From Metabacillus sp. KUDC1714 (GTDB lineage: Bacteria; Bacillota; Bacilli; Bacillales; Bacillaceae): DNA of 64,000 nucleotides. Where the stretch lies: the NCBI RefSeq assembly GCF_014217835.1, contig NZ_CP055263.1, positions 2,917,501-2,981,500 on the forward strand. The letters run 5' to 3'. Below the pieces are notes generated by a model. It had not been told where the DNA came from. It saw only the letters and a program-made list of their open reading frames with translations, and did not search any database. Every line of letters begins with the position of its first letter. Within the stretch, counting starts at the first letter, position 1. Both the position numbers and the translations under genes were made by a program. Of this stretch, positions 43,028 to 61,004 are shown in pieces.

Positions 43028-43099
43028 GATCCGATAGTTCAGTGGGAGAACACTACCTTGACAGGGTAGGGGTCGGGGGTTCGAATCCCTCTCGGATCA
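43028..43099 (+). tRNA. tRNA-Val (anticodon GAC)
   Basis: A 72-base cloverleaf without encoded CCA. The acceptor GATCCGA pairs with TCGGATC, the D stem GTTC with GAAC, the anticodon stem CTACC with GGTAG around loop TTGACAG, and the T stem GGGGG with CCCTC around TTCGAAT. The anticodon GAC reads GUC/GUU valine codons. A site-specific integrase follows, so its 3' end is the likely attachment site of the island. Confidence 0.92.
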
Positions 43100-43152
43100 T
43101 CAAAACAAAATAGTGTATGAATCTTGTTGTATCAAGGTTTGTGAGGCAGAGA

Positions 43153-43229: not shown

Positions 43230-44351
43230 CTATTTTCTACCTGCATATATGAATTGGTCGAATATCGTTGCGGCTTCTTTTTGCATTGTTGGTAATGAAT
43301 GACTATAACGATCTAGCGTAATCTTCGTGCTAGCATGTCCTAGACGTTCAGAGATTACTTTCACGTTCACACCTAATTGGAGCATGAGTGAAGCATGTGT
43401 ATGCCGTAAATCATGAAATCGAATTTTAGGGACATTTACTTTTTTAATCAAATTGTTAAAGTTACGTCGAAGGTTACTAGGATTAATAGGAGTACCCTCT
43501 AATGAAGCGTTCACTAGATTCATGTTCTGATAACCGTTGCCAAGCTTTAAACGTTGCTCAGCTTGTACTGTCTTATGTTTCTTTAGTAGACGAATAATCG
43601 TATTAGAAAGCTCAATTACACGGCGGCTAGAGGTAGTCTTTGTGGATTCTTGAATTTTCTTCGAGCCATTAATAATTGTGTGACGTACCTTAATGACTTG
43701 CTTCTCAAAATCAATATCATCCCATAATAAGCCTATTAGTTCCCCTTGACGCATACCAGTATTTAGAGCTAATACATAAACTAACTCATAGGGAGTTTCC
43801 TCAGCTGTTTTAAGAAACATTTGGACTTGCTCCTGTGTCCAGATGTTCATTTCTTGAGGCTTATGTTTAGGTGTAGAAATAGCTAAAACAATATTATGTG
43901 GCACAACTTGTAGCTTAACTGCTTGATTATAAATGTTTACTAATACCTTATGAACATTCTGAATTGTAGCGGCACTACGTTTTTCTTCATGAAGTGTAGT
44001 GTACAGCTGAGACATATGCAGAGGCTTAAGGTTTGCAATTAGCATATGCCCTAGAAAAGGTCGAATATGATTTTCAATAGTATAGTAGTATTTTTGTTGT
44101 GTGTTTATGCTCACTGTACGCTTTTTATTTTCAATATAAATATCTAGAAATTCATTCAGTGCCATCTTAGAAGGCTCGATATATGTACCTTCGTTTACTT
44201 GACTAAGTGCTTTTGTCAGAGCAGCCTGTGCTTCTTTCTTCGTTTTAAAGCCACGTTTTTTCTTTTGTTTTCGTTTTCCTGAAATTGGATCTTGATAGCC
44301 GAATACATAGTACCAGTTATTGTTTTCTTTCTTAATAGAACCTTGTGCCAT
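43230..44351 (-). CDS. tyrosine recombinase/integrase of an integrative element
   Basis: A 373-residue phage-type integrase. The N-terminus (GSIKKENNNWYYVFGYQDP) is the arm-site DNA-binding domain with KKRGFKTKKEAQAAL; the core-binding part is about residues 65-165. The catalytic residues are visible: Arg in NTGMRQGELIGL, H-x-x-R in FHDLRHTHASLM, His in ERLGHASTKIT and Tyr in LDRYSHSLPT. AGGAGG precedes the ATG. It points toward the tRNA-Val gene 130 bases away, the usual layout of elements inserted at a tRNA 3' end. An HTH gene lies just upstream and may direct excision. Confidence 0.93.
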   Translation of the reverse strand: MAQGSIKKENNNWYYVFGYQDPISGKRKQKKKRGFKTKKEAQAALTKALSQVNEGTYIEPSKMALNEFLDIYIENKKRTVSINTQQKYYYTIENHIRPFLGHMLIANLKPLHMSQLYTTLHEEKRSAATIQNVHKVLVNIYNQAVKLQVVPHNIVLAISTPKHKPQEMNIWTQEQVQMFLKTAEETPYELVYVLALNTGMRQGELIGLLWDDIDFEKQVIKVRHTIINGSKKIQESTKTTSSRRVIELSNTIIRLLKKHKTVQAEQRLKLGNGYQNMNLVNASLEGTPINPSNLRRNFNNLIKKVNVPKIRFHDLRHTHASLMLQLGVNVKVISERLGHASTKITLDRYSHSLPTMQKEAATIFDQFIYAGRK

Positions 44352-47815: not shown

Positions 47816-48004
47816 ATATTAAAATTAAGCAATTCCAATAAAAATCAAATGAAGTATTTGTGTATTATTACCATCATATATTCCAAGTCAATTAGAAGAG
47901 AATGTCAAGTATTGTACTGAAACTAAACCAGCTAATAGTTTGTCAATATTTTTCAATAAAAAATATAAATTAGCCATGATATACTAAAAATATGGATGCC
48001 AAAT

Positions 48005-48036
48005 AACCTTCCACTAACTAATCATTGGAAGGTTTT
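48005..48036 (-). terminator. hairpin in the IS110 right end
   Basis: AACCTTCCA pairs with TGGAAGGTT. The second copy keeps an equivalent hairpin near 54298-54330. It lies just after the transposase stop and is either its terminator or a structured end. Confidence 0.6.
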
Positions 48037-48060
48037 GTCTTATTTACTTAAAAATCTTAA

Positions 48061-49296
48061 TTAGGCTATATCCTGGAAAGTGGTTCTGTTTTTTAATATG
48101 GCATAAATCCAATGTAAGAGCTTATTTACACAAGCAATAACGGCTACTTTGTAAAGTTTACCTTCCTCACGCTTCTTATCGTAAAACTCTCTTAATCTCT
48201 TGTTTCTAGGGATGATTTCATCCGTTGTTTTCTGTTTACGACAATCACGAATGCCAGAACGAACAGCCATATATAAGGCGTGCCGCAACCTACTTGATCC
48301 ACGTTTTGTAATACGAACGAGAGTAGCTTTAAATTTTCCCGACTCAAATACTTCTGGATCAACTCCAGCGAATGCGACAAGCTTTTTAGGGTGATTAAAC
48401 CGATCTATCTCCCCAATTTCAGAAATAATCGTTGCCGCGATTTTTTCTCCAATGCCAGGGATAGATTGGATAATCTTATATTCTTCAATTTCCTTTGCTA
48501 GAGTATCTATCTCAGCGTCCAACTCTGATAGATGCTCTTTGTATTGAAGAAGCATATTTATATACATACTCAGACTCAGTAAATGACTCTGATATAGTGT
48601 CTTTTGAAATGGATTCCGTGCAGCTGCTGCCTTTAGTTTTTGAGACTTTTCTACTGCCCATCTTTTCGAACGACTTTTACATAATTCCTTTATTCTATCA
48701 GCCAACGCATCTTCACTAACTGCTAAAATATCTTCTGATACTGGGTACTCTTGTAGAATATGCAAAGACACAACAGAATATAAGTCACCAAAAACGCCTC
48801 TATATTCAGGAAATATTTGATCTAGTACTGCTTGAAATTGTAGTTTGGTTTGCACGTACATTCCTGTAATATTCTCATGTTGTCTTGTAAGATTACGAAG
48901 GTTCAAGAGTTGAATCCCACGTTTCTTGTATGGCTCTAAATCCTCTTTGTAGTAAAGCTCACAAAGACGATAGGCATCAATGGCATCAGTTTTTACTTTT
49001 CGTAAACTAGAGCTTTTGGCTCTATGAGAGATCAAAGGATTAACAATGATTAATAAATACTGATGTTCCTCTAGAAACTGAACAACTGGTGCATGGTAAT
49101 GTCCAGTCGCTTCTAAAACTACCGAAGGTTGGAGACCTGTTTTATCTTTTATATCTTTCAGAAACTCAAGTAATGATCCTAGCCCATCAAGATCATGTTT
49201 GATACTAAAGCTTTTACGGTAAGGTTTTCCCTTATCTAAAAATGCCTGAACTTCACTTTCCCCTTTTGAAACATCCAGACCAATGACTGGATTCAT
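48061..49296 (-). CDS. IS110 family transposase
   Basis: A 411-residue DEDD transposase. MNPVIGLDVSKGESEVQAFL holds the first Asp, SVVLEATGHYHAPVVQFL the Glu, and LRKVKTDAIDAYRLCELYY the D-x-x-D part of the RuvC-like catalytic domain. The C-terminal domain (IIQSIPGIGEKIAATIISE, VAFAGVDPEVFESGKF, RITKRGSSRLRHALYMAV) holds the conserved Ser. ATG 49296 follows AGGAG and is preferred: the longer frame to 49398 runs through the non-coding end. It appears intact, so the element may still move. Confidence 0.93.
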   Translation of the reverse strand: MNPVIGLDVSKGESEVQAFLDKGKPYRKSFSIKHDLDGLGSLLEFLKDIKDKTGLQPSVVLEATGHYHAPVVQFLEEHQYLLIIVNPLISHRAKSSSLRKVKTDAIDAYRLCELYYKEDLEPYKKRGIQLLNLRNLTRQHENITGMYVQTKLQFQAVLDQIFPEYRGVFGDLYSVVSLHILQEYPVSEDILAVSEDALADRIKELCKSRSKRWAVEKSQKLKAAAARNPFQKTLYQSHLLSLSMYINMLLQYKEHLSELDAEIDTLAKEIEEYKIIQSIPGIGEKIAATIISEIGEIDRFNHPKKLVAFAGVDPEVFESGKFKATLVRITKRGSSRLRHALYMAVRSGIRDCRKQKTTDEIIPRNKRLREFYDKKREEGKLYKVAVIACVNKLLHWIYAILKNRTTFQDIA

Positions 49297-49490
49297 TCTA
49301 AATCTCCTACTCAAATGTACTTGCCAGTAACCCCTATTCCTCCTAGTAGTATCATAGCTTCGCTTGTTATACGAGATCTCGGTCCCAACCAGCCTCAAAC
49401 ATGTTTCTACCAGTAGGGGGTGAACGGTTTAGCTGACGGGATCTAAGTCCCACGGGTGCTTACGTTCTACCCTGGCTACTGCTATAATAA
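49297..49490 (-). ncRNA. candidate IS110 bridge RNA region
   Basis: About 195 bases of non-coding sequence lie between the left end and the transposase start. IS110 elements are known to encode a structured bridge RNA there whose loops pair with target and donor DNA. Structure is visible: CAGTAG (49411-49416) pairs with CTACTG (49476-49481), and GGGA/TCCC form a hairpin at 49438-49451 inside it. The RNA ends and guide loops cannot be fixed without other copies. Confidence 0.5.
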
Positions 49491-49498
49491 GACCCTAT

Positions 49499-49540
49499 AA
49501 AAAAAGGTCAACCAGAAATATTTAGCATTCTGGCTAACCT
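49499..49540 (-). terminator. minus-strand intrinsic terminator at the IS110 left end
   Basis: On the minus strand a 12-bp stem (GGTTAGCCAGAA / TTCTGGTTGACC, with G-T pairs) is followed by seven or more T. It would stop transcripts before they enter the insertion sequence, or end a gene lost upstream. Confidence 0.75.
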
Positions 49541-49561
49541 TATAATACGAATGGGTGCTTG

Positions 49562-50763
49562 TGTGGCCGAGCTTAGGTCGTATCATATAACGGGTGGGAT
49601 TCCCGTCGAGTAAGAATTAGCCATTCGCTCGTAGCGAGTCTTGGAGGACTAAAGGTAACTTTAGTTTTTAAGCGTAGACAGTTAGGTGGCGGGCCGAAAG
49701 CCAAATGGTTGAAGGGATTGACCTCCATAATGTTAGTAATACGAGAGGGCTGATGCTTTAAGCGCTACAGAAAGCTACATTTTATCTTTCGATAGTGGCA
49801 AGAAGGATAAAACCTCTCTGGAGTCAGAGACCTTGGCACGTTACACATTGATATGATACGGCAACTCGGGTGACCCTACCGGTCTTTTCTTTTTTTGAAG
49901 AGTATGGTGTACAAGCGATAACAAGCAAGGAAACCAAATGCCGATGTAGGAAAGGCTAGCTACCAGTTATCACCCTTACTAGGGACACATTTACTACACA
50001 CAGAGGTAGGGATAATAAATGGAAACATAACTACTAAGGATAGCAGAATTAGCAAAGTCTGATCCTAAAATGAAATTCACATCACTTGCATATTTATTAA
50101 ATAAGCAAGCACTAGCTCAATGTCATCATGAACTACCCAATAGGAAAGCAACCGGGATTAATGGTACTACTAAAGAGCAATACGGTGAAAATTTAGAAGA
50201 AAACATAGAGGAGTTAGTAAGTAGGCTTAAAAGTAAACGCTATCGTCCTGTTCCAGTAAGGAGAATGTATATTCCGAAGCTTAATTCAGACAAGAAAAGA
50301 CCATTAGGAATACCGGAACATGAAGACAAGATTGTTCAAAAAGGCATTACAAAGATACTAGATACCATCTATGAAAATGATTTCTAGATTGTTCCTTTGG
50401 TTTTCGTCCAAACCGTAGTTGTCATGATGCTTTGAAAATACTGAACTACTATATTGAAAAGAGATCAGTAAATTATGTAGTTGATGTCGATATTAAAGGA
50501 TTCTTTGACAACGTTGACCACAAATGGATGATGGAGTTCTTAAAACTGCGAATTGCTGACCCTAACTTACTAAGAATAATTGGTAGGTTTCTTAAAGGAA
50601 ACTGGATACCTTTGATTTTCTAGGGTTCACACATTATTGTGGGAAAAGTAAACAATGGGAATTTCGGGTGAAACGGAAATCGAGCAGGAAGAAAGTCCAA
50701 GGCAAACTCAAAGAATCTAAAGAATGGCTTTTTATTTTAGTCAATGAGCCTTATCTAACATAA
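49562..50763 (+). mobile_element. group II intron remnant
   Basis: GTGTGGCCGAG at 49562 matches a common 5' end of bacterial group II introns, and the next 450 bases resemble domain I (GGGTGGGATTCCCG, CTGGAGTCAGAGACCTTGGC, GGCAACTCGGGTGACCCTAC). The reverse transcriptase gene inside is broken. No domain V or 3' splice end is found. ATGGGTGCTT occurs exactly before the 5' end (49552-49561) and again at 50819-50828. Confidence 0.82.
50019..50763 (+). pseudogene. group II intron reverse transcriptase/maturase with internal deletion
   Basis: From ATG 50019 the fourth codon is TAA, after which LLRIAELAKSDPKMKFTSLA reads on through YRPVPVRRMYIPKLNSDKKR and RPLGIPEHEDKIVQKGI, the N-terminal part of LtrA-type proteins. 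A base is missing near 50384, after which FLDCSFGFRPNRSCHDALKI and VDVDIKGFFDNVDHKWMME continue (RT motifs 3 and 4). At about 50610 it jumps in another frame to FDFLGFTHYCGKSKQWEFRV, the region after motif 7, and ends at 50763. The YADD active site is deleted, so it is inactive. Confidence 0.9.
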
Positions 50764-51117: not shown

Positions 51118-52318
51118 TCAAGCCCCATCCCCAGGGTGGAATTTATAGTAGAGCAACTGCCCCAGTTTTTCGAAATATCCATCTTTAACTCTATGTGTTA
51201 CATTCACATCTATTGTTACATCAATGTCATTGATATTACTGTTATACGCTAATGCACCAGTTTGTCCTATGGCTAAGGTTCCTGTAGCAGCAAAATAAAC
51301 TGTAGATAAAAGACTATCCAACTTTGAATAATAGACTTCTAATGAATCGGCGTATATATTCAATACTTTATTTGCATCGCTATACTTTCCACCTGGAGAT
51401 AAAGCTCCCATTGGTATAGCTGCAGCCATACAGAGCCATTCCGAAAAAATATCGGTTGTTCCTGACGACTCGTTTATAAACGATTGAGCAGCATGAGCAA
51501 ACACATGACAACCTAATGAATGAGTAACAATTGTCCCTCTGCCAATCTTGTTGATTAAAACTGACTCCGATATCCCTTTCAAGAATGGTACCAAAGCTGC
51601 ACCTACTTCCTCCGCACGCTTCATTAACTCATGCCAGAAGACTGCTGCAAATAAATCTGGTGCTGGGTTAGGTTCGGGATCGGTAATAGGGCCTAGAATC
51701 ATTTCAAACCCTTTTCGGATAGACCATTCGTACTCATCTGTTAATTCGGTGTCATAACTTAATATGTAAACATCAACATCTGAATAGCCAAGATTTGGAT
51801 CATAAAACAATTTTACTTCATTTTCAAAGGGTTTAAAAAAGTCAAAAGCCGTTTCTTTATTTTGTTTATTAAAGGCACCATGTATAAAAATAAAAGGTCT
51901 CCTATTTTCTGGAAATGGAAATGGGAGGCTTATTTCATCTAATTCTACATTTCCTTCCCAAACTGCTGCTTTCGGATTTTTTACTTTGTAAATAACCGGT
52001 TTAACCTCTTTTCTAAGCTCATTTTGAACTTTATCAAATACTTCCTGAATTAAATCAAGTGGTATAGTACCCATTTCGAATAGAATCTGGTTCATTGCTA
52101 TATGATGTTGTAATGTTCTCAACCTACTATTAATCAAAAATTTCTCGTATTTCTGGTACGTTTTTACAGAACAATCCGTAGTCGAGGACAAACAATCTTG
52201 CGCCGTATGATAGAACATGAAAATCTTGTACGGTGCCGTTAATCAAGTTGGCTGTTGCACCAGCTATTTCATTCCCTGCCTTTGAAAGCTTCTTACCAAT
52301 ATTTTTAAGACTACCCAA
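51118..52318 (-). pseudogene. alpha/beta hydrolase-like gene split by a frameshift
   Basis: A TTG at 52318 with a strong AAGGAGGAG site opens MGSLKNIGKKLSKAGNEIAG and runs 62 codons to a stop at 52130. The next frame carries the rest (LRTLQHHIAMNQILFEMGTI onward): RPFIFIHGAFNKQNKE is the oxyanion-hole strand, GTIVTHSLGCHVFAHAAQSF has the Ser elbow (T-H-S-L-G), and THRVKDGYFEKLGQLL may carry the His. The frames join at a run of five T (about 52132-52140); with four T the protein would be continuous, about 400 residues. Slippage or sequencing error would also explain it. No signal peptide; the substrate is unknown. A lipase-like effector or toxin is only speculation. Confidence 0.65.
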
Positions 52319-52782
52319 GGACTCACTCCTCCTTATAAATGGAAATTAGTAATAGTATAGTTTTATCGGATTTGTTTTATGTGACAAGTCCAAAATATTA
52401 TAAATTAGTAAAATTGTATTTTTCGCACTTTTTTACAATTTAAAAATGAAAAATTGCATAATGTTAAATGGCATTTTAAACGTATTCTCGAGGAATATAA
52501 GAAAGTAATTCAACCTTAAACGTTGTTAAGCTAACGAGTGCAAGAGTTAAAGATAGGGGTTTCTGCGGCAGCCTTTTTTCTTTTTCCTTCTTCATCTAAA
52601 GGTAAAGGAGATGGTTAGTTTTATTATATTTCATTAGTGGAAAATCAGTATGTGTTACCGTACTAGTAATATCGAATTTTTAATCCAGCACTTTCCTGTT
52701 TTTAAAATCCTTATTTAAGAATTGTTGGAGTATTTTTCCTTACTTGCGGTAAATATAAAAAAAACCGTAAGGATTGATTCAT
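52319..52782. other. divergent intergenic region
   Basis: About 460 bases upstream of both the hydrolase and the endonuclease gene. It contains promoters by necessity, but none is clear. A segment near 52560-52590 (GGGGTTTCTGCGGCAGCC) is GC-richer than its surroundings. No ORF is supported. Confidence 0.4.
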
Positions 52783-54147
52783 TTGGAGACTGTTGAAGAA
52801 TTGTACAAAAAACATGGATCGGTTACTAAACTGAGCAAGCTGTTGAATATTAATCGAAATAAGCTCTCTAAGGAGTTAAAGGCTTTGGGGGTAAGTATTG
52901 CTCCTGTAGCACAAAGAAAAGATGTGGATGTATTGAAAATGAAGGTTATGTATTTAATTGAGCGGATGAGTCTCTCTGAAATAGCTGAGGAGTTTGGCGT
53001 TGAACGCAGACTGGTTTCATACAGATTGAAAGAGTTAGGTGTAGAAATTAGATTTACCGCACCTAAAAATTTCCCCCAGGAAGTGTATCAAGATTGGGCG
53101 GAACAGTACCAGTTGGATTTTTCTTATGAGTATATTGGCAAACAATATGAAGTAAGCAAGGAAACTGTAAGGTATTATCTACAAAATAAGATGGGGATTC
53201 CTAGTCGAGCTAGTCAAAAAATATTTAAAGAGGAAACCTATCTTATATGGGTGGAGCTATATGAACATGGGGCGAGCCTACAAGAAATAGCGGATCAATT
53301 TGACGTATCTATTTCAACCGTAGCTAAACATCTCGAAATTCGAGGGATAGAACGAAGAAACGGAAATACTTTTACCGAAGAGATATATGATGAATGGACT
53401 GCATTGTATAAAGCTGGATTTACAACAAGAGAGATAGCCTCCTTGTATGGAGTCAGTAAGTTTCCAGTAACTTATCATTTAAAAAGGAAAGGCGTAAGGA
53501 TGCGAGAAAACTGGGAGTGGAATCTTTCCAAGCCTCATTTATTGGAGGCAGAGCTATCTTATGAACAAAAACAATTGGTTATTGCAAGTGCCATGGGCGA
53601 CGGTACTCTATATGATCAGGCTATGGGTGCTTATCTTCGTATGAAGCATAAAGAAGGGCAAAGGGAATACTTGGAATATAAAAAAGGGATCTTGGGTGGA
53701 TACATTGCTCTTGCGGGAATGGTAGAGACAGAAACGGATGCAAACGGAAAAACATTTGAGCAAGTATATGTCTGTTCGGTCCCTAATATGTATATTAAAA
53801 AGATTCGTACCTTAACATACTGTTCAGGAGTGCGGGTAATACGTGATATTATTCCTCTACTTGATTCACTTGGACTAGCCATACTCTGGTGTGATGATGG
53901 CCATTACATGAAGAAAAAAATGGGAAAGCTGTTTACGCTCAACTTCTCGTGGGAGGACAATGAACTTCTTGCCGCTCATATGTCGGATAAATTTGGAATT
54001 GAATGTTATGTTAGCGAGATCTATTCGAAAAAATATAATAAAAAGTATCAGTGTATCTATATCACGGTAGAAGGGATGAAACAAATGATAGAGGTTATCT
54101 CTCCATACGTCCCTTCAAGCATGCGTTATAAACTTGGTGAATTGTAG
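52783..54147 (+). CDS. LAGLIDADG endonuclease-like protein with five N-terminal HTH units
   Basis: A 454-residue protein. About 235 residues hold five helix-turn-helix-like units of 35-45 residues, e.g. SLSEIAEEFGVERRLVSYRL, SYEYIGKQYEVSKETVRYYL, SLQEIADQFDVSISTVAKHL and TTREIASLYGVSKFPVTYHL. Then VIASAMGDGTLYDQAMGAYL (from about residue 266) and GLAILWCDDGHYMKKKMGKL (about 364) are two LAGLIDADG-type motifs with the acidic metal ligands, typical of one-chain homing endonucleases. TTG 52783 is chosen as start: AAGGA at 52769-52773 is well spaced for it and too close for TTG 52774. It is not inside an intron or intein here, so it may be a free-standing homing enzyme or a regulator. Confidence 0.82.
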   Translation: METVEELYKKHGSVTKLSKLLNINRNKLSKELKALGVSIAPVAQRKDVDVLKMKVMYLIERMSLSEIAEEFGVERRLVSYRLKELGVEIRFTAPKNFPQEVYQDWAEQYQLDFSYEYIGKQYEVSKETVRYYLQNKMGIPSRASQKIFKEETYLIWVELYEHGASLQEIADQFDVSISTVAKHLEIRGIERRNGNTFTEEIYDEWTALYKAGFTTREIASLYGVSKFPVTYHLKRKGVRMRENWEWNLSKPHLLEAELSYEQKQLVIASAMGDGTLYDQAMGAYLRMKHKEGQREYLEYKKGILGGYIALAGMVETETDANGKTFEQVYVCSVPNMYIKKIRTLTYCSGVRVIRDIIPLLDSLGLAILWCDDGHYMKKKMGKLFTLNFSWEDNELLAAHMSDKFGIECYVSEIYSKKYNKKYQCIYITVEGMKQMIEVISPYVPSSMRYKLGEL

Positions 54148-54211: not shown

Positions 54212-54705
54212 AACTAAACCAGCTAATAGGTTGTCAACATTTTTCAATAAAAAGATTTATAACATCATGATATACTAAAAATGTTCATGCCAAATAACCT
54301 TCCTCTATATTGTAATTGGAAGGTTTTGTTGTATTTAGTTAGATACAGTTTTTAGCTATATCTTGGAAAGAAGTTCGGCTTTTTAGTAAGGCAAAAATCC
54401 AATGTAAGAGCTTATTAACACATGTAATAACTGCTACACTGAATGGTTTTCCTTCTTCACGTTTCTTATCGTAAAACTCTCTTAATCTTTTATTGCGTGC
54501 GATGATCTCATCAGTCGTTTTCTTTTAACGGGCACCACGAATACCACTTTGAACAGCCATATATAGGGCATGGCGGAGTCTACAAGAACCTCGTTCGGTT
54601 ATCCTATTAACTGATGCGGTAAACTTTCCAGAAGAGTAAACGCTAGGATCTACTCCTGCGAATGCAACTAGCTTTTTGGCATCATTAAACCGTTCTATCT
54701 CACCA
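54212..54705 (-). mobile_element. truncated second copy of the IS110 element
   Basis: The sequence parallels 47921-48411: the same AACTAAACCAGCTAATAG end, the same hairpin and the same C-terminal transposase coding. Similarity stops abruptly at about 54705, where a CCTTCGGCTATTGG repeat begins. The left end and most of the transposase are absent. It lies in the same orientation as the intact copy, about 6 kb away. Confidence 0.85.
54339..54705 (-). pseudogene. C-terminal IS110 transposase fragment
   Basis: GEIERFNDAKKLVAFAGVDP, FTASVNRITERGSCRLRHAL and AVQSGIRGAR lead to a TAA at 54525-54527, where the intact copy has a Lys codon. After it KKTTDEIIARNKRLREFYDK and VAVITCVNKLLHWIFALLK continue in the same frame to the stop at 54339. 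So a point nonsense change as well as truncation disables it. Confidence 0.88.
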
Positions 54706-54707
54706 AG

Positions 54708-54978: not shown

Positions 54979-55674
54979 CTAATATAAAGAATATTCATTT
55001 ATGATTACAAAGCCGGCTATGTTATCATAAATCTCATCTGAATTGTACTTTGGACAGTTAATTAAATTTTGTTCCTTTATGAAAGTGTCGGCTTCTGCAT
55101 TCCAAAGAATCAAAGGTTCTTGAAGTTGGCTTTTAAATAATTTAGGATATCCCTTAAAATGGTTACATGTTAATGAGTTTCTATAAGCCAAAGAAAAAGC
55201 ATTTAGTAATTCTTTAGGAGAATATACGTCATAAGACACATCGTCCCCACATTTTAATTTAAAGTATCCATATTCCAATTCCTCTCCCAGTACCTCTTCT
55301 AAAGCAATTGTTAATTCAAGAATTTCAATATCTGTAACAAGTTTTATTTGTCCATAGGTATTATCTTCTTCTAAAGGAAGTTCTAATAAGGCCAAGTATT
55401 TGATCTGGTTCTTACCACTCAGTTCTTTAATTTCATGAATAAAGTTAAATAACTTTTTAGTAATTTCGTTATAATCACTAAGTGATACTGTAAGACTAAA
55501 TGTAACTAAAATTCTTTCATCAATAAAATTTGTTAATAGTAATCTCCTTAGATGTGTAATACTTCCTTTAAAATTATCCTTCTCAAATCCAAGATTTTTT
55601 ATAATATTTCTACTGTTGAAATCATATACAAATGTTGTAGATCCACAATGAACTAATTTAGTTTGTTGAGTCAT
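54979..55674 (-). CDS. Rep-like protein lacking the HUH histidines
   Basis: A 231-residue protein without a database-style signature. Compared by eye with the Rep gene two places upstream, the order of blocks matches: HLRRLLLTNFIDERILVTFS with QIRRLLECNFTDRYAFITLT; KYLALLELPLEEDNTYGQIK with KYLGVTEFQDENRQGTIHFH; HFKGYPKLFKSQLQEPLI with NGHKRYFHSHGLKKPITI. The HUH site I-H-F-H is I-K-L-V here, so metal binding and nicking should be lost. ATG 55674 has AAGGAG upstream and is preferred to 55692. The start overlaps the HTH gene end by 17 bases, so it is part of the same operon. A regulator or decoy of Rep is a hypothesis. Confidence 0.6.
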   Translation of the reverse strand: MTQQTKLVHCGSTTFVYDFNSRNIIKNLGFEKDNFKGSITHLRRLLLTNFIDERILVTFSLTVSLSDYNEITKKLFNFIHEIKELSGKNQIKYLALLELPLEEDNTYGQIKLVTDIEILELTIALEEVLGEELEYGYFKLKCGDDVSYDVYSPKELLNAFSLAYRNSLTCNHFKGYPKLFKSQLQEPLILWNAEADTFIKEQNLINCPKYNSDEIYDNIAGFVIINEYSLY

Positions 55675-55861
55675 GATAGTTTTCTCCTTCAATCCATTTT
55701 AATAGAACATTTTTTGAAACTTTGATGCGTCTTCCTATATTTATTACATGAAATTTATCAGAATGTACTAGCTCATAGGCCTGTTTTCTACCAATACCGA
55801 GTATTTCTTGAATGTCTGATACATTTAGAATATCTGGGTAATCATTATAGTTCTTGTACAT
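55658..55861 (-). CDS. excisionase-like helix-turn-helix protein, second copy
   Basis: A 67-residue protein. ILNVSDIQEILGIGRKQAYE and VINIGRRIKVSKNVLLKWIE make the winged HTH of excisionase-type proteins; the recognition helix carries G-R-K-Q. GGAG precedes the ATG at ten bases. It overlaps the end of the Rep gene by 17 bases and the start of the next gene by 17. The same fold next to the integrase at 44374 suggests a duplication or two related elements. It could regulate excision or the operon itself. Confidence 0.82.
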   Translation of the reverse strand: MYKNYNDYPDILNVSDIQEILGIGRKQAYELVHSDKFHVINIGRRIKVSKNVLLKWIEGENYHDSTN

Positions 55862-56615
55862 ATTTGATTAACTCCTTTATATCTTCTAAATAGTATTGTT
55901 CATATTTTGTCTCACCAGTAACCTGTGATTGATATGTATCGTCGTGTTTTAAAGTTGGCTGGCACTTAATAAGATAATTGTAAAACTCATCAAGATTCAT
56001 AACCTCTATGGTAATAGGTTTTTTTAGACCGTGTGAATGGAAGTACCTTTTGTGACCATTTAATCTAGGATCAGCAATCCCTTTCTTTAAATAGAAGGAA
56101 ATTTTTTCGTTTTCTGTAGATTCTGAAGTTGTAAGTGCTTTGTGAACACAACCGTACTGCCACAGCTTTTGAATTGTTATTACAGGAACTTCTGTTAGAT
56201 TGCAAACAATGTGAAAGTGAATAGTTCCTTGACGATTCTCATCCTGGAACTCTGTAACGCCTAGGTACTTAAAATCTGGTAAATTGTTTGTTTTTAAATA
56301 GTAGGCGAGCCTTTTTTTGAATTTTGCAAACAACCTATTACAGATATTTATATTAGTTACATCAATATCTTCAGTTGGATTAAAGGTTAGGGTGATAAAT
56401 GCATAACGATCAGTAAAATTGCACTCTAGCAATCTCCTAATTTGATTTCGTGCACGATTTATCCCTCTTTTTACATTGGTATCATGATCCTCAATACTTT
56501 GAATGGGGTAAGTCTTACGTCCTCCTGAGTAAGTTCTTCTATCTAGAGGTAAGTATTCTTGTTTAATCACTTCTACTAGTTTGTTACTTATTATTACTTT
56601 TGTATATCCTGGCAT
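55845..56615 (-). CDS. HUH-type rolling-circle replication initiator (Rep)
   Basis: A 256-residue protein. YAFITLTFNPTEDIDVTNIN is the first Rep motif, FKYLGVTEFQDENRQGTIHF with I-H-F-H-I is the metal-binding HUH motif, and KISFYLKKGI contains the probable catalytic Tyr, followed by NGHKRYFHSHGLKKP. Such proteins nick one strand at an origin and stay linked through the Tyr; they drive replication of small plasmids, integrative elements and some phages. ATG 56615 is preferred: AAGGAG at nine bases, versus a TTG at 56654 with none. It begins a three-gene operon. No origin hairpin was identified by eye upstream. Confidence 0.85.
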   Translation of the reverse strand: MPGYTKVIISNKLVEVIKQEYLPLDRRTYSGGRKTYPIQSIEDHDTNVKRGINRARNQIRRLLECNFTDRYAFITLTFNPTEDIDVTNINICNRLFAKFKKRLAYYLKTNNLPDFKYLGVTEFQDENRQGTIHFHIVCNLTEVPVITIQKLWQYGCVHKALTTSESTENEKISFYLKKGIADPRLNGHKRYFHSHGLKKPITIEVMNLDEFYNYLIKCQPTLKHDDTYQSQVTGETKYEQYYLEDIKELIKYVQEL

Positions 56616-56952
56616 CTGTTTATACTCCTTTTCTAATATCCTGATTTTCGTCAAATTAATCCCTATTTATCTAGATTATATTAATAAGGTACCTTTTATA
56701 AACTTGTCTACATTGATGTATTTTAGATTAATTTTACATTCTCTTATTGTACTTATAATGACTCCTCAAAGGTAATTCGATCATTCCCCGTATATACTCA
56801 TGAATATCTATTACTAGAGAAATTACACTACTTTTTTTTTTAGATAGTTAGAATTACTTGCAAATACGTTGAAATTCTTAAAAATTAGATAGAATGTAAT
56901 TCATTACAGCGTTATGTTAAATTGTGGAAGTGTTTTTTAGAAGGTTTTTTCA
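56616..56952. other. region upstream of the Rep operon
   Basis: About 335 AT-rich bases that should hold the promoter for the Rep operon and possibly its origin. A clear nick-site hairpin was not found by eye. No ORF is supported. Confidence 0.4.
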
Positions 56953-57699: not shown

Positions 57700-59709
57700 A
57701 TGATTAACTTTCAAGATAAAGTAAGTTTCATCTGGTCAATCGCAGAGGTTTTGCGTGGACCTTATAAACCAGAGGACTACGGTAAGGTGGTTTTACCATT
57801 AGCGGTTTTACGCCGTTTTGACTGCGTATTAGAAGATACGAAGGATGATGTGTTAGCAAAATTTGCTGACTTGAAATCTATCAATGAAGATGCACGTGAG
57901 CCGATTTTAAATCGTATCGCCAAGCAAAATTTCCACAATACAAGTAACTACAACTTTAAAAACTTATTAAGCGATGCGGATAATATCGCTGATAACTTAC
58001 GTGATTATATCAATGGTTTCTCAAAAACAGCACGTGATATTATGGAGTATTTTGAGTTTGATAAACAAATCGACAAGATGAATGACAATGATTTATTGTA
58101 CTTAACGATTAAGCGTTTCAGTGAATTGGACCTTCATCCAGAAGTTGTTTCCAATGTAGAGATGGGGTATATCTTTGAAGAATTAATCCGCCGTTTCTCA
58201 GAACATGCTGAGGCTGGGGATCACTATACACCTCGTGAAGTCGTACGTTTAATGGTTAGTCTTTTATTCATGCGTGATGATGATATTTTAACGAAATATG
58301 GTCTAACCCAAACTTTATATGACTGTGCTGCTGGTACAGGTGGTATGGGTTCTGTTGCACAAGAATACTTACATGAATTAAACCCAAATGCAGACCTGGA
58401 ATTCTTTGCACAAGAAATCAACGGGGAATCGTATGCAATCTGTAAAGCCGACATCTTAATTAAAGGTGAAGATGCTCGTAACATTCGTCGAGGAAATACT
58501 TTATCGAATGACCAATTTAAAGGCGAAAAGTTCGACTATCTAATCTCAAATCCTCCATATGGTGTGGACTGGAAGTCATATGAAAAGCCAATTAAAGCAG
58601 AGCATGAGGAACAAGGCCTTAACGGTCGGTTCGGCCCTGGTACACCTCGTACAAGTGACGGACAGCTTTTATTCTTATTGCACTTAATTTCAAAAATGAA
58701 GGAAGTAACAGTTGAAAATCCACAAGGCTCTCGGCTAGCGATTATTATGAATGGATCGCCACTATTTACAGGTGATGCAGGTTCAGGTGAAAGTGAAATC
58801 CGTAAATATGTACTTGAAAATGATTTAGTAGAAGGAATCGTTGCATTACCAAATGACTTATTCTATAACACGGGTATTTCAACATACATTTGGATCTTAA
58901 CAAATAACAAAGCAGCCATTCGTAAAGGAAAAGTTCAATTAATCAATGCTGTAGACTTCTCAAAAAAAATGAAGAAAAGTATGGGTAATAAACGTAACGA
59001 AATTACACAGGAGCAAATTGATGAAATCGTTCGTTTATACGGTTCCTTCAAACCAAGCGATTATGTAAAGATTTTCGATAAGGAAGATTTCGGCTATCAC
59101 AAAATTACCGTAGAACGCCCACTACGACTAAACTTCCTTATTTCAGAAGAACGTATCGGGCAAGTAGCAGAACAAAAAGCCTTCCAAAACCTTGCAACAT
59201 CGAAGAAAAAAGGCGATAACGGACTTGCTGAAATTGAAGCCGGCAAAGAGCTACAAGTGAAAATTACCGAAGTGTTACGTAGCCTTGAAAGCGATACACT
59301 ATATAAAAATCGTGAAGACTTTGAAAAGAAATTAAAAGCAGCTTTTAAAGAAGCAGGACTTACAATCGGTGCACCTGTACTAAAAGCAATCTTAGCTAGC
59401 CTTTCTGAAAAGGATGAAACAGCCGATGCATGCATGAAGAAAAAAGATGAAAGCGAAGCAGATGCCGACTTACGTGATACAGAAAATGTACCACTAAAAG
59501 AAAACATCTACGAATACTTTGAACGTGAAGTGTTACCTCATGTACCAGATGCATGGATTGATCACAGTAAAACAAAAGTCGGTTATGAAATTCCATTCAC
59601 ACGTCAATTTTACAAATACACAGCACTACGCAGTTCAGAAGAAATCATGGCTGAAATTAAAGAGCTAGAAGTGAGTATTGCTGATCAGTTGAAGAAGGTG
59701 TTGGGATGA
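57700..59709 (+). CDS. hsdM: type I restriction-modification DNA methyltransferase subunit
   Basis: A 669-residue N6-adenine methyltransferase. An N-terminal HsdM helical domain (FIWSIAEVLRGPYKPEDYGK, VLPLAVLRRFD) precedes the catalytic domain: EHAGDHYTPREVV-type entry (AEAGDHYTPREVVRLMVSLL), motif I YDCAAGTGGMGSVAQEYL for S-adenosylmethionine and motif IV YLISNPPYGVDW. The C-terminal extension (about residues 500-669, with charged helices) makes it longer than the classic HsdM of about 520. AAAGAGGAG precedes the ATG. It overlaps hsdS as ATGA. It modifies host DNA with HsdS and supports HsdR cutting. Confidence 0.93.
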   Translation: MINFQDKVSFIWSIAEVLRGPYKPEDYGKVVLPLAVLRRFDCVLEDTKDDVLAKFADLKSINEDAREPILNRIAKQNFHNTSNYNFKNLLSDADNIADNLRDYINGFSKTARDIMEYFEFDKQIDKMNDNDLLYLTIKRFSELDLHPEVVSNVEMGYIFEELIRRFSEHAEAGDHYTPREVVRLMVSLLFMRDDDILTKYGLTQTLYDCAAGTGGMGSVAQEYLHELNPNADLEFFAQEINGESYAICKADILIKGEDARNIRRGNTLSNDQFKGEKFDYLISNPPYGVDWKSYEKPIKAEHEEQGLNGRFGPGTPRTSDGQLLFLLHLISKMKEVTVENPQGSRLAIIMNGSPLFTGDAGSGESEIRKYVLENDLVEGIVALPNDLFYNTGISTYIWILTNNKAAIRKGKVQLINAVDFSKKMKKSMGNKRNEITQEQIDEIVRLYGSFKPSDYVKIFDKEDFGYHKITVERPLRLNFLISEERIGQVAEQKAFQNLATSKKKGDNGLAEIEAGKELQVKITEVLRSLESDTLYKNREDFEKKLKAAFKEAGLTIGAPVLKAILASLSEKDETADACMKKKDESEADADLRDTENVPLKENIYEYFEREVLPHVPDAWIDHSKTKVGYEIPFTRQFYKYTALRSSEEIMAEIKELEVSIADQLKKVLG

Positions 59710-61004
59710 GTAAAAGAAAAGAATATGATGAATATAAGCCCACATCAATTATGGGTATAAATAAAATTCCATCTCATTGGGTAGAGTCGAAATTTAGATA
59801 CGTTACCGACGTATTAACGGATTACACAGCCAATGGTTCGTTTAAATCATTGGCAGATAATGTTGAATATTTAAGTGAACCTGATTATGCCCGTTTAATT
59901 CGTTTAACAGATTTACGTTCAAATTTAAGTAATGATGGAATTTATGTTAATGAAGATTCCTATAATTTTTTGAAGAAATCAGCTTTATTTGGTGGAGAAT
60001 ACTTAATTGCTAACGTTGGAGCTTATGCAGGATTAGTTGTTCAAATGCCCAAATATGATGGAGTAGCAACTCTTGGACCGAATATGATGATGGCTAGATT
60101 TGATGAAAAAAAAGTTCTTGTGAAGTTTATGGTATATATATCTAATAGTGAGTATATTCAAAAGCAACTTCTCTTAAAAGCAACTGCTTCAAGTGCTCAA
60201 CCTAAATTAAATAAGGAAGACTTTAGAAGTGTTGAGTTTATCTATCCTAAAATAGACGAACAAAAATGTATTATTAGATATCTAGATAATAAAGTTGGAC
60301 AAATAGATAAATTAATTGATGAAAAGAAAAAATTAGTCTTATTGTTAGAAGAAAAACGCCAAGCAGTGATTAAAGAAGCGGTAACAAAAGGTTTAAATCC
60401 AAATGTAAAAATGAAAGATTCTGGTGTGGAATGGATTGGTGAAATACCTGAGCATTGGGAAGTTAAACAGTTGAAAAGAGCTTTAAAAGTATGTAATGGA
60501 AGAGAAATTGAAATTGAATTAGAGAAAAATGATGAAAATGGAATAAATGTGTATGGTTCTGGCGGTATTTTTAAGAAAACGGATAGACATTTATTTAGTG
60601 GGGAATCAGTGTTATTTGGTCGTAAGGGAACTATTGGAAAACCAATGTATGTAAATGATTTATTTTGGGCTGTAGATACAATGTACTTTACAAAGTTCAA
60701 CAGTAACTCTTACCCTAAATGGTTTTACTATATGTTGAAAGTTTATCCCTGGGATTTAATAATGACTCAGACTGCTTTGCCAAGTATTGTTGGAACAGAT
60801 GTAGAAAATGATATTTGGGCAATACCTGATTATAAGGAACAGATTGAAATAGCAAATTATTTACAAATAAAAGATATTAAAATGTTTTCTACAATTGAGA
60901 GTATAGAAAATCAAATCCAAAAATTAAAAGAATACCGCCAGTCTTTAATTTACGAAGCAGTAACAGGTAAAATTGATGTTCGTGATTTTGAAATAGAACA
61001 GTAA
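59706..61004 (+). CDS. hsdS: type I restriction-modification specificity subunit
   Basis: A 432-residue protein with two target-recognition domains. Each begins with a conserved W segment (KIPSHWVESKFRYVTDVL; EIPEHWEVKQLKRALKV) and each half ends in a coiled conserved region (EKRQAVIKEAVTKGL in the middle, EYRQSLIYEAVTGKIDVRD at the end). The TRDs set the two half-sites of the recognition sequence; the spacer helices set their spacing. The sequence recognised cannot be predicted by eye. It overlaps hsdM and lies 12 bases before hsdR. Confidence 0.93.
   Translation: MSKRKEYDEYKPTSIMGINKIPSHWVESKFRYVTDVLTDYTANGSFKSLADNVEYLSEPDYARLIRLTDLRSNLSNDGIYVNEDSYNFLKKSALFGGEYLIANVGAYAGLVVQMPKYDGVATLGPNMMMARFDEKKVLVKFMVYISNSEYIQKQLLLKATASSAQPKLNKEDFRSVEFIYPKIDEQKCIIRYLDNKVGQIDKLIDEKKKLVLLLEEKRQAVIKEAVTKGLNPNVKMKDSGVEWIGEIPEHWEVKQLKRALKVCNGREIEIELEKNDENGINVYGSGGIFKKTDRHLFSGESVLFGRKGTIGKPMYVNDLFWAVDTMYFTKFNSNSYPKWFYYMLKVYPWDLIMTQTALPSIVGTDVENDIWAIPDYKEQIEIANYLQIKDIKMFSTIESIENQIQKLKEYRQSLIYEAVTGKIDVRDFEIEQ

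Follow-up and report, generated by a model that had tools for sequence, protein, structure and literature searches.

A putative free-standing LAGLIDADG homing endonuclease with five helix-turn-helix units on a tRNA-Val island of Metabacillus

The window analysed here (64,000 nucleotides of Metabacillus sp. KUDC1714, NCBI RefSeq assembly GCF_014217835.1, contig NZ_CP055263.1, positions 2,917,501 to 2,981,500) holds a gene, here termed the HTH5-LAGLIDADG gene, whose product joins five helix-turn-helix (HTH) units to a LAGLIDADG nuclease domain; coordinates are those of the window unless stated otherwise. We consider this protein to be more likely than not a free-standing LAGLIDADG homing endonuclease. 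It has a fold of the I-SceI type with intact acidic residues and five HTH units, it is conserved among its relatives, its gene lies on an integrated island, and neither a host intron nor a host intein was recognised. From these features we infer that it would cleave DNA, recognise a long site, home, share a target with its relatives and live outside any intron or intein.

A single uninterrupted frame spans 52774-54147 of the forward strand (457 aa from its first TTG), in keeping with the one unbroken gene described in the initial annotation, and the opposite strand of the gene is filled with stops in the frame read. The second TTG (52783) is the likelier start, because a probable Shine-Dalgarno sequence stands 9 nt upstream of it (Table 1). 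Residue numbers below follow the 457-aa frame from TTG 52774; for the 454-aa product, three must be subtracted.

The C-terminal half matches the Pfam family LAGLIDADG_2 at residues 269-437 (E 3.4e-20, 73 bits vs. a cut-off of 25). In a structure predicted from a 22-sequence alignment (mean pLDDT 85.2, pTM 0.50), HTH units at residues 4-239 precede a LAGLIDADG domain at 263-454, modelled as an alpha/beta pseudo-dimer whose ten-residue blocks from 261 onward all have pLDDT of at least 87. Acids D276 and D374/D375 are intact and do not vary in any of the 22 aligned sequences, and D276 and D375, which we take to be catalytic, line up with the acids of I-SceI and I-WcaI. These two enzymes, the best structure and profile matches, share the two-motif pseudo-dimer fold, the acids and the C-terminal Lys; they differ in being intron-encoded by name and in having no counterpart to the five-HTH array, the aligned region here starting at about residue 242. 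The modelling thus supports a true LAGLIDADG fold in the C-terminal half, closest to I-SceI/I-WcaI. Two LAGLIDADG motifs with intact acids had been noticed from the letters alone, and both the fold and the invariant acids uphold that observation. Pfam and the model assign residues 1-240 to HTH units and the remainder to LAGLIDADG_2 with an I-SceI-like fold, and no relative that we met is characterised as an ordinary regulator.

For the N-terminal half, where about five HTH units had been proposed, the model shows exactly five, each of three helices (residues 4-37, 50-87, 102-139, 153-189 and 202-238), and generic HTH families cover residues 55-245 among the best 25 of 54 Pfam matches. Shuffle tests agreed, with eight of the ten unit-unit pairs strongly alike (0-3 of 500 shuffles reaching the score, z 4.0-15.8), one pair weak (units 2 and 3, 15 of 500) and one not significant (units 1 and 3, 348 of 500). 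Among controls pairing each unit with LAGLIDADG stretches, two of ten were mildly raised, both with unit 3 (22 and 6 of 500), and a pair of two LAGLIDADG stretches was not raised. Among the close relatives, the recognition helix (helix 3) is better conserved than helices 1 and 2 in every unit (helix 3, 0.51, 0.57, 0.65, 0.58 and 0.71 from unit 1 to unit 5; helix 1, 0.31-0.61; helix 2, 0.35-0.65), with a margin over the other helices of 0.01-0.04 in units 2-4 and a unit 1 value drawn from 10-15 pairs. Conservation of whole units drops outward from the nuclease (0.60, 0.55, 0.56, 0.47 and 0.39 for units 5 to 1), a pattern that we read as suggesting a target common to the relatives, with the outermost unit least constrained. 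Conservation of the recognition helices among the close relatives favours a single common target over freely varying modular specificity.

No host for the gene was recognised. An Rfam search of 40-64 kb of the window, with E up to 1, found no group I intron; its sole intron match, a group II piece, covers 49597-49833, some 3 kb from the gene, with none around 52783-54147. Residence inside a group II intron was rejected, since this match, the sole one of group II, stops at 49833. No forward-strand frame of at least 60 aa lies between 52318 and 52774, and no split gene was found around the HTH5-LAGLIDADG gene. Nor is there an intein-type surround, since HTH units take up residues 1-240 and the frame closes shortly after the nuclease; the Hint family is absent among the best 25 of 54 Pfam matches. 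The earlier statement that host intron and intein are both lacking therefore holds for what Pfam and Rfam recognise, and not for an unusual intron, which could escape Rfam.

Our protein search, in which the 7996 candidates sharing the most words were scored, returned 13 proteins: the protein itself, eight close relatives (P0003-P0010, 48-68% identity, from the sources jgi and lgn, P0009 being from Paenibacillus sp. TRM 82003) and four distant ones. Unit 1 is complete in four of the eight close relatives (P0004, P0005, P0008 and P0009); P0003 begins within it, P0006 and P0007 begin after it, and P0010, on a 2.2-kb contig, has unit 5 only, although relatives' starts may be mis-called. A distant homologue, P0011 (LAGLIDADG_2, 2e-31), has four HTH-like units by eye. 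A profile rerun over 7998 candidates added four distant proteins (P0015-P0018) and no close one. Searches of 79 other genomes of the family, 397 other Bacilli genomes, genome contigs (pattern-limited) and phage records likewise gave no additional close relative. Plasmids yielded three records, none with more than 39% coverage, and with P0009 as query nine, none at 80% coverage; viral contigs yielded 12 loci, 23-30% identical essentially over the LAGLIDADG part, with no close relative. In a quick tree the nine-member family formed one clade (SH-aLRT 99), linked to phage intein sequences with a value of 83; its long branches preclude any deep conclusion on that link.

More widely, 40 PF03161 matches occur in 36 of 398 Bacilli genomes. 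Frames were examined at 29 of the 30 loci given, our own included (locus L044 yielded no frame), and by eye none of the other 28 had a run of HTH units. Among six of the 28 tested in Pfam, an HTH family appeared only in L043, below its curated cut-off, and L049 had a Myb-like match, likewise below cut-off. Loci L052-L072 come from the genome families f31 and f18. In f31 genomes, which make up 15 of the 36 with matches, there occur LAGLIDADG_2 frames (278-358 aa) that by eye end in an HTH-like C-terminal tail, and five f18 frames (633-652 aa) have two LAGLIDADG_2 copies, with acids by eye lost in the first and intact in the second; such frames may be domesticated. On an Aneurinibacillus plasmid (L016, NZ_CP116888.1:478330-479475), three HTH units by eye precede a LAGLIDADG-like part that appears to have lost its acids (GTG and EGKG, by eye) and in which Pfam finds no LAGLIDADG family at 0.001; this is perhaps an array protein turned binder.

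Should the protein home, its HTH units would lie side by side along the DNA, as in Cbp1, holding the LAGLIDADG domain next to the cut site; the pseudo-dimer would make a double-strand break at one asymmetric site, and recombination repair would copy the gene into uncut alleles. The I-SceI recognition site is roughly 18 bp. An array acting as an 'address' would lengthen the site well beyond this, perhaps to 50 bp or more, and the relatives would aim at one conserved common target, probably on other mobile elements or phages. Recognition of a long site in modular fashion is suggested by analogy with Cbp1. A more specific proposal, which we advance tentatively as possible rather than probable, is that of a natural 'addressed meganuclease', in which the five HTH units read several tens of bp and hand the I-SceI-like domain the adjoining cut site. 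Its site would be among the longest of single-chain homing enzymes, and mobile elements may have changed array length to retune specificity: one or two weak units are present in a distant relative from genome G267, four by eye in P0011 and five here.

The array's nearest known likeness is Cbp1, which also sets tandem HTH units along one DNA stretch (array vs. the CRISPR repeat-binding protein structure 2lvs, E 1.2e-6; vs. the NCBIfam Cbp1 model, E 6e-14). The architecture is common to both, not the function, as Cbp1 of the Sulfolobales has three units and no nuclease, against five units and a LAGLIDADG domain here. Membership in the Cbp1 family (NF040595) was rejected, at 52.1 bits vs. a curated cut-off of 140. 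The three HTH domains of Cbp1 are described as aligning along one CRISPR repeat (PMC10883916). Phage homing endonucleases of the HNH, GIY-YIG and EDxHD classes with NUMODs likewise tether a nuclease to DNA-binding modules, which include HTH according to the relevant part of PMC3943268, where LAGLIDADG enzymes are handled apart from these module-tethered ones; the present protein differs in combining HTH modules with a LAGLIDADG nuclease. Among viral models the best matches were BFVD A0A8S5TK09 and A0A8S5TK23 of Podoviridae sp. ctz6O13 (E 2.7e-20 and 2.6e-19, spanning 414 and 312 alignment columns with gaps included); these proteins, of 361 and 312 aa, are shorter than ours. When the G267 relative was compared with phage records, the best place began at its residue 53-70, in its second HTH-like part, for 10 of the 34 matching records, and Acinetobacter phage records are among the phage HTH plus LAGLIDADG proteins. 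Phages seem to have such proteins as well, so the join by itself is not unique. Neither a multi-HTH LAGLIDADG protein nor, more narrowly, a five-unit array on an I-SceI-like domain was met in the literature searched, which covered few subscription journals and gives no proof of absence. The fold search results are not used here to claim the absence of any structural family.

LAGLIDADG enzymes have been described as compact and hard to retarget and modular nucleases as easy to retarget, the two having been joined by engineers in megaTALs, where a modular TAL array addresses a meganuclease next to its site (PMC3936731). The likeness is a parallel of our own: in both, a DNA-binding array would address a meganuclease, but megaTALs are engineered and use TAL repeats, not HTH units. 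If our reading is correct, the HTH5-LAGLIDADG protein shows how evolution made a megaTAL-like join. It would also provide a scaffold of bacterial origin whose recognised site may be very long, illustrate variation in array length among relatives, and extend to a bacterial island a class of nucleases known mainly from introns and inteins.

Several observations weigh against a free-standing homing endonuclease. The gene is present in a single copy in its genome, and its flanks revealed no empty site or target in 20 other genomes of the genus. The left flank has counterparts in 12 of them, only at the dispersed repeat 52518-52604; the right flank has counterparts in 10, of which nine fall within an IS110 stretch and one, in G053, is a 23-bp match elsewhere. 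That the repeat and IS110 are halves of one split site found no evidence, the IS end being set by its copies at ~54212 and the repeat looking complete. The suggestion that the target lies in or near the island likewise gained no support; with the island integrated at tRNA-Val, the target could be anywhere, other mobile elements included. With a pTM of 0.50, the model does not predict where the array sits against the nuclease, and the conservation of helix 3 may partly reflect the HTH core and not DNA contacts.

A contrast of occupied and empty sites is available only for the distant G267 relative (305 aa; 28% identity over 203 aa, E 3e-21, in the LAGLIDADG part only, with a weak HTH signal), which also counts on the negative side. 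It is encoded on the opposite strand of a ~1.2-kb insert in the 3' part of a prophage capsid gene (L015/L073; ~1285-2484 of L015). The capsid frame ends 20-odd residues early at the insert, and behind the insert we found a capsid end matching phage Page (19 aa, 63%, E 7e-6) and prophage G469 (31 aa, 39%, E 4e-5); uninterrupted capsid frames measure 324 aa in G469, 320 in Page and 313 in API480. An insert between the capsid gene and the next was therefore rejected, and the capsid gene itself must be split in G267. The gene next to the capsid is weakly alike in G469, Page and API480 (E 0.001, 0.003 and 9e-5), and the gene after that had no convincing match in this comparison. Rfam recognised no intron at the insert at E up to 1, and we consider it probably an unrecognised intron, perhaps of an unusual class; a mycobacteriophage capsid intron described in PMC3706429 also carries an opposite-strand LAGLIDADG frame. 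This kind of nuclease is thus found as a mobile insert, and G267 gives indirect support to homing of that kind, not of free-standing five-HTH genes. Having missed that insert, Rfam gives a negative around our own gene that is strong for known intron classes only. The split capsid gene without an Rfam intron lowered our estimate for a free-standing enzyme and raised that for an intron-borne one.

Of the other explanations, the one that survives best, while still unlikely, is an island-borne antagonist, a nuclease that would be retained because it cuts a conserved site in competing mobile elements or phages, homing or not. Frames for type I HsdM and HsdS lie on the same integrated island, the PADLOC model HEase (homing endonuclease) matches residues 259-456 (E 3.6e-18), and conserved recognition helices fit a conserved foreign target. 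Against this, the two nearest frames scanned (51118-52218 and 54979-55692) have no PADLOC match and no defence partner was recognised beside the gene; sequence alone cannot separate an antagonist from a homing enzyme.

There is a slim chance that the protein acts as a WhiA-type transcription regulator, its LAGLIDADG fold and HTH units binding DNA without cutting. WhiA is portrayed in PMC10714963 as a conserved regulator with a degenerate LAGLIDADG domain and one HTH domain. The fold is common to both, but membership in a WhiA-like family was rejected, given that in WhiA (DUF199) LAGLIDADG comes first and HTH last, the opposite of the order here, where the acids are moreover intact. Slimmer again is the chance of a recently inactivated homing gene, in which some substitution has already abolished activity within an open frame. 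Truncated elements do surround the gene, and homing genes usually decay after invasion, as stated in PMC13405050; yet the frame is full-length, and no family-conserved column was seen broken in the aligned catalytic motifs.

Least probable of all is that the gene is intron-borne or an intron leftover, of the nearby group II piece or of a class outside Rfam, perhaps with a maturase role: besides the G267 and mycobacteriophage inserts, that piece, the existence of group II introns with LAGLIDADG proteins (reported in PMC13190283) and a weak structural match to the bI3 maturase speak for it, but the piece has its own reverse transcriptase (RT)-like frame (50070-50387) with our gene 2.4 kb beyond, the Rfam search found no further intron part, and in place of a split gene there are a neighbour with its own start and an IS110 end ~65 bp past the stop.

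Table 1. Features of the HTH5-LAGLIDADG gene and of the left end of its island (window coordinates)
Feature	Position	Strand	Basis or remark
HTH5-LAGLIDADG gene	52783..54147	+	454 aa from TTG 52783; 457 aa if TTG 52774
Probable Shine-Dalgarno AAGGA	52769..52773	+	Sequence; 9-nt spacing to TTG 52783
HTH unit 1 (residues 4-38 of 457), least conserved unit	52783..52887	+	Shuffle tests, model, conservation
HTH unit 2 (residues 50-88)	52921..53037	+	Pfam, shuffle tests, model
HTH unit 3 (residues 102-140)	53077..53193	+	Shuffle tests, model
HTH unit 4 (residues 153-190)	53230..53343	+	Pfam, shuffle tests, model
HTH unit 5 (residues 202-239), most conserved unit	53377..53490	+	Shuffle tests, model, conservation
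LAGLIDADG pseudo-dimer domain (residues 263-454), I-SceI-like	53560..54135	+	Pfam, model, structure and profile matches
LAGLIDADG motif 1 (QLVIASAMGDG, residues 267-277; acid D276)	53572..53604	+	Sequence, alignments
LAGLIDADG motif 2 (LGLAILWCDDG, residues 366-376; acid D375)	53869..53901	+	Sequence, alignments
Invariant C-terminal Lys K453, aligned with YK of I-SceI/I-WcaI	54130..54132	+	Alignments
attL, 47-bp exact direct repeat, 3' end of tRNA-Val	43058..43104	.	Partner outside window at genome 2985976-2986022
Tyrosine integrase of island, adjoins tRNA	43230..44351	-	PF00589, 1.3e-28

The island is a tRNA-Val-integrated mobile element, 25.4 kb between its att repeats; it encloses the HTH5-LAGLIDADG gene and has its right end 4.5 kb past the window (C1:2986022). 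Its cargo includes a papain-like protease, a ParA-like frame (by eye), the type I HsdM/HsdS genes as long open frames (57700-61004) and a rolling-circle Rep-like gene (55845-56654; phrog_3584, 3.3e-25). The surroundings had been called decayed, which fits the truncated IS110 3' end at 54212-54706 (~495 of 1644 bp, beginning ~62-66 bp past the stop of our gene) and the short, 105-aa RT-like frame that follows the group II piece (RF02005, full model length), but not the long open Rep-like and HsdM/HsdS frames nearby. On the other side, the minus-strand neighbour starts at TTG 52318 with its own AGGAGG, and so is not split by the HTH5-LAGLIDADG gene.

That neighbour is a 366-aa frame (51118-52318, minus strand) with no Pfam family over cut-off; a 62-aa frame in another phase overlaps its 5' side and has a better start signal, a possible frameshift. 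An HTH_17 gene adjoins the Rep-like gene (together 55658-56654, minus strand), the pair being replication parts of plasmid-like or phage-like type within the island. A longer copy of IS110 (~47900-49555) contains a 445-aa frame, and DNA like the IS110 fragment is present at several other places in the genome. The dispersed intergenic repeat to the left of the gene has a CTGCGGCAG core and a T-run. Stacked islands are suggested in genome G052, where extra copies of the tRNA end lie ~18 and ~40 kb away from the stretch that matches this tRNA region.
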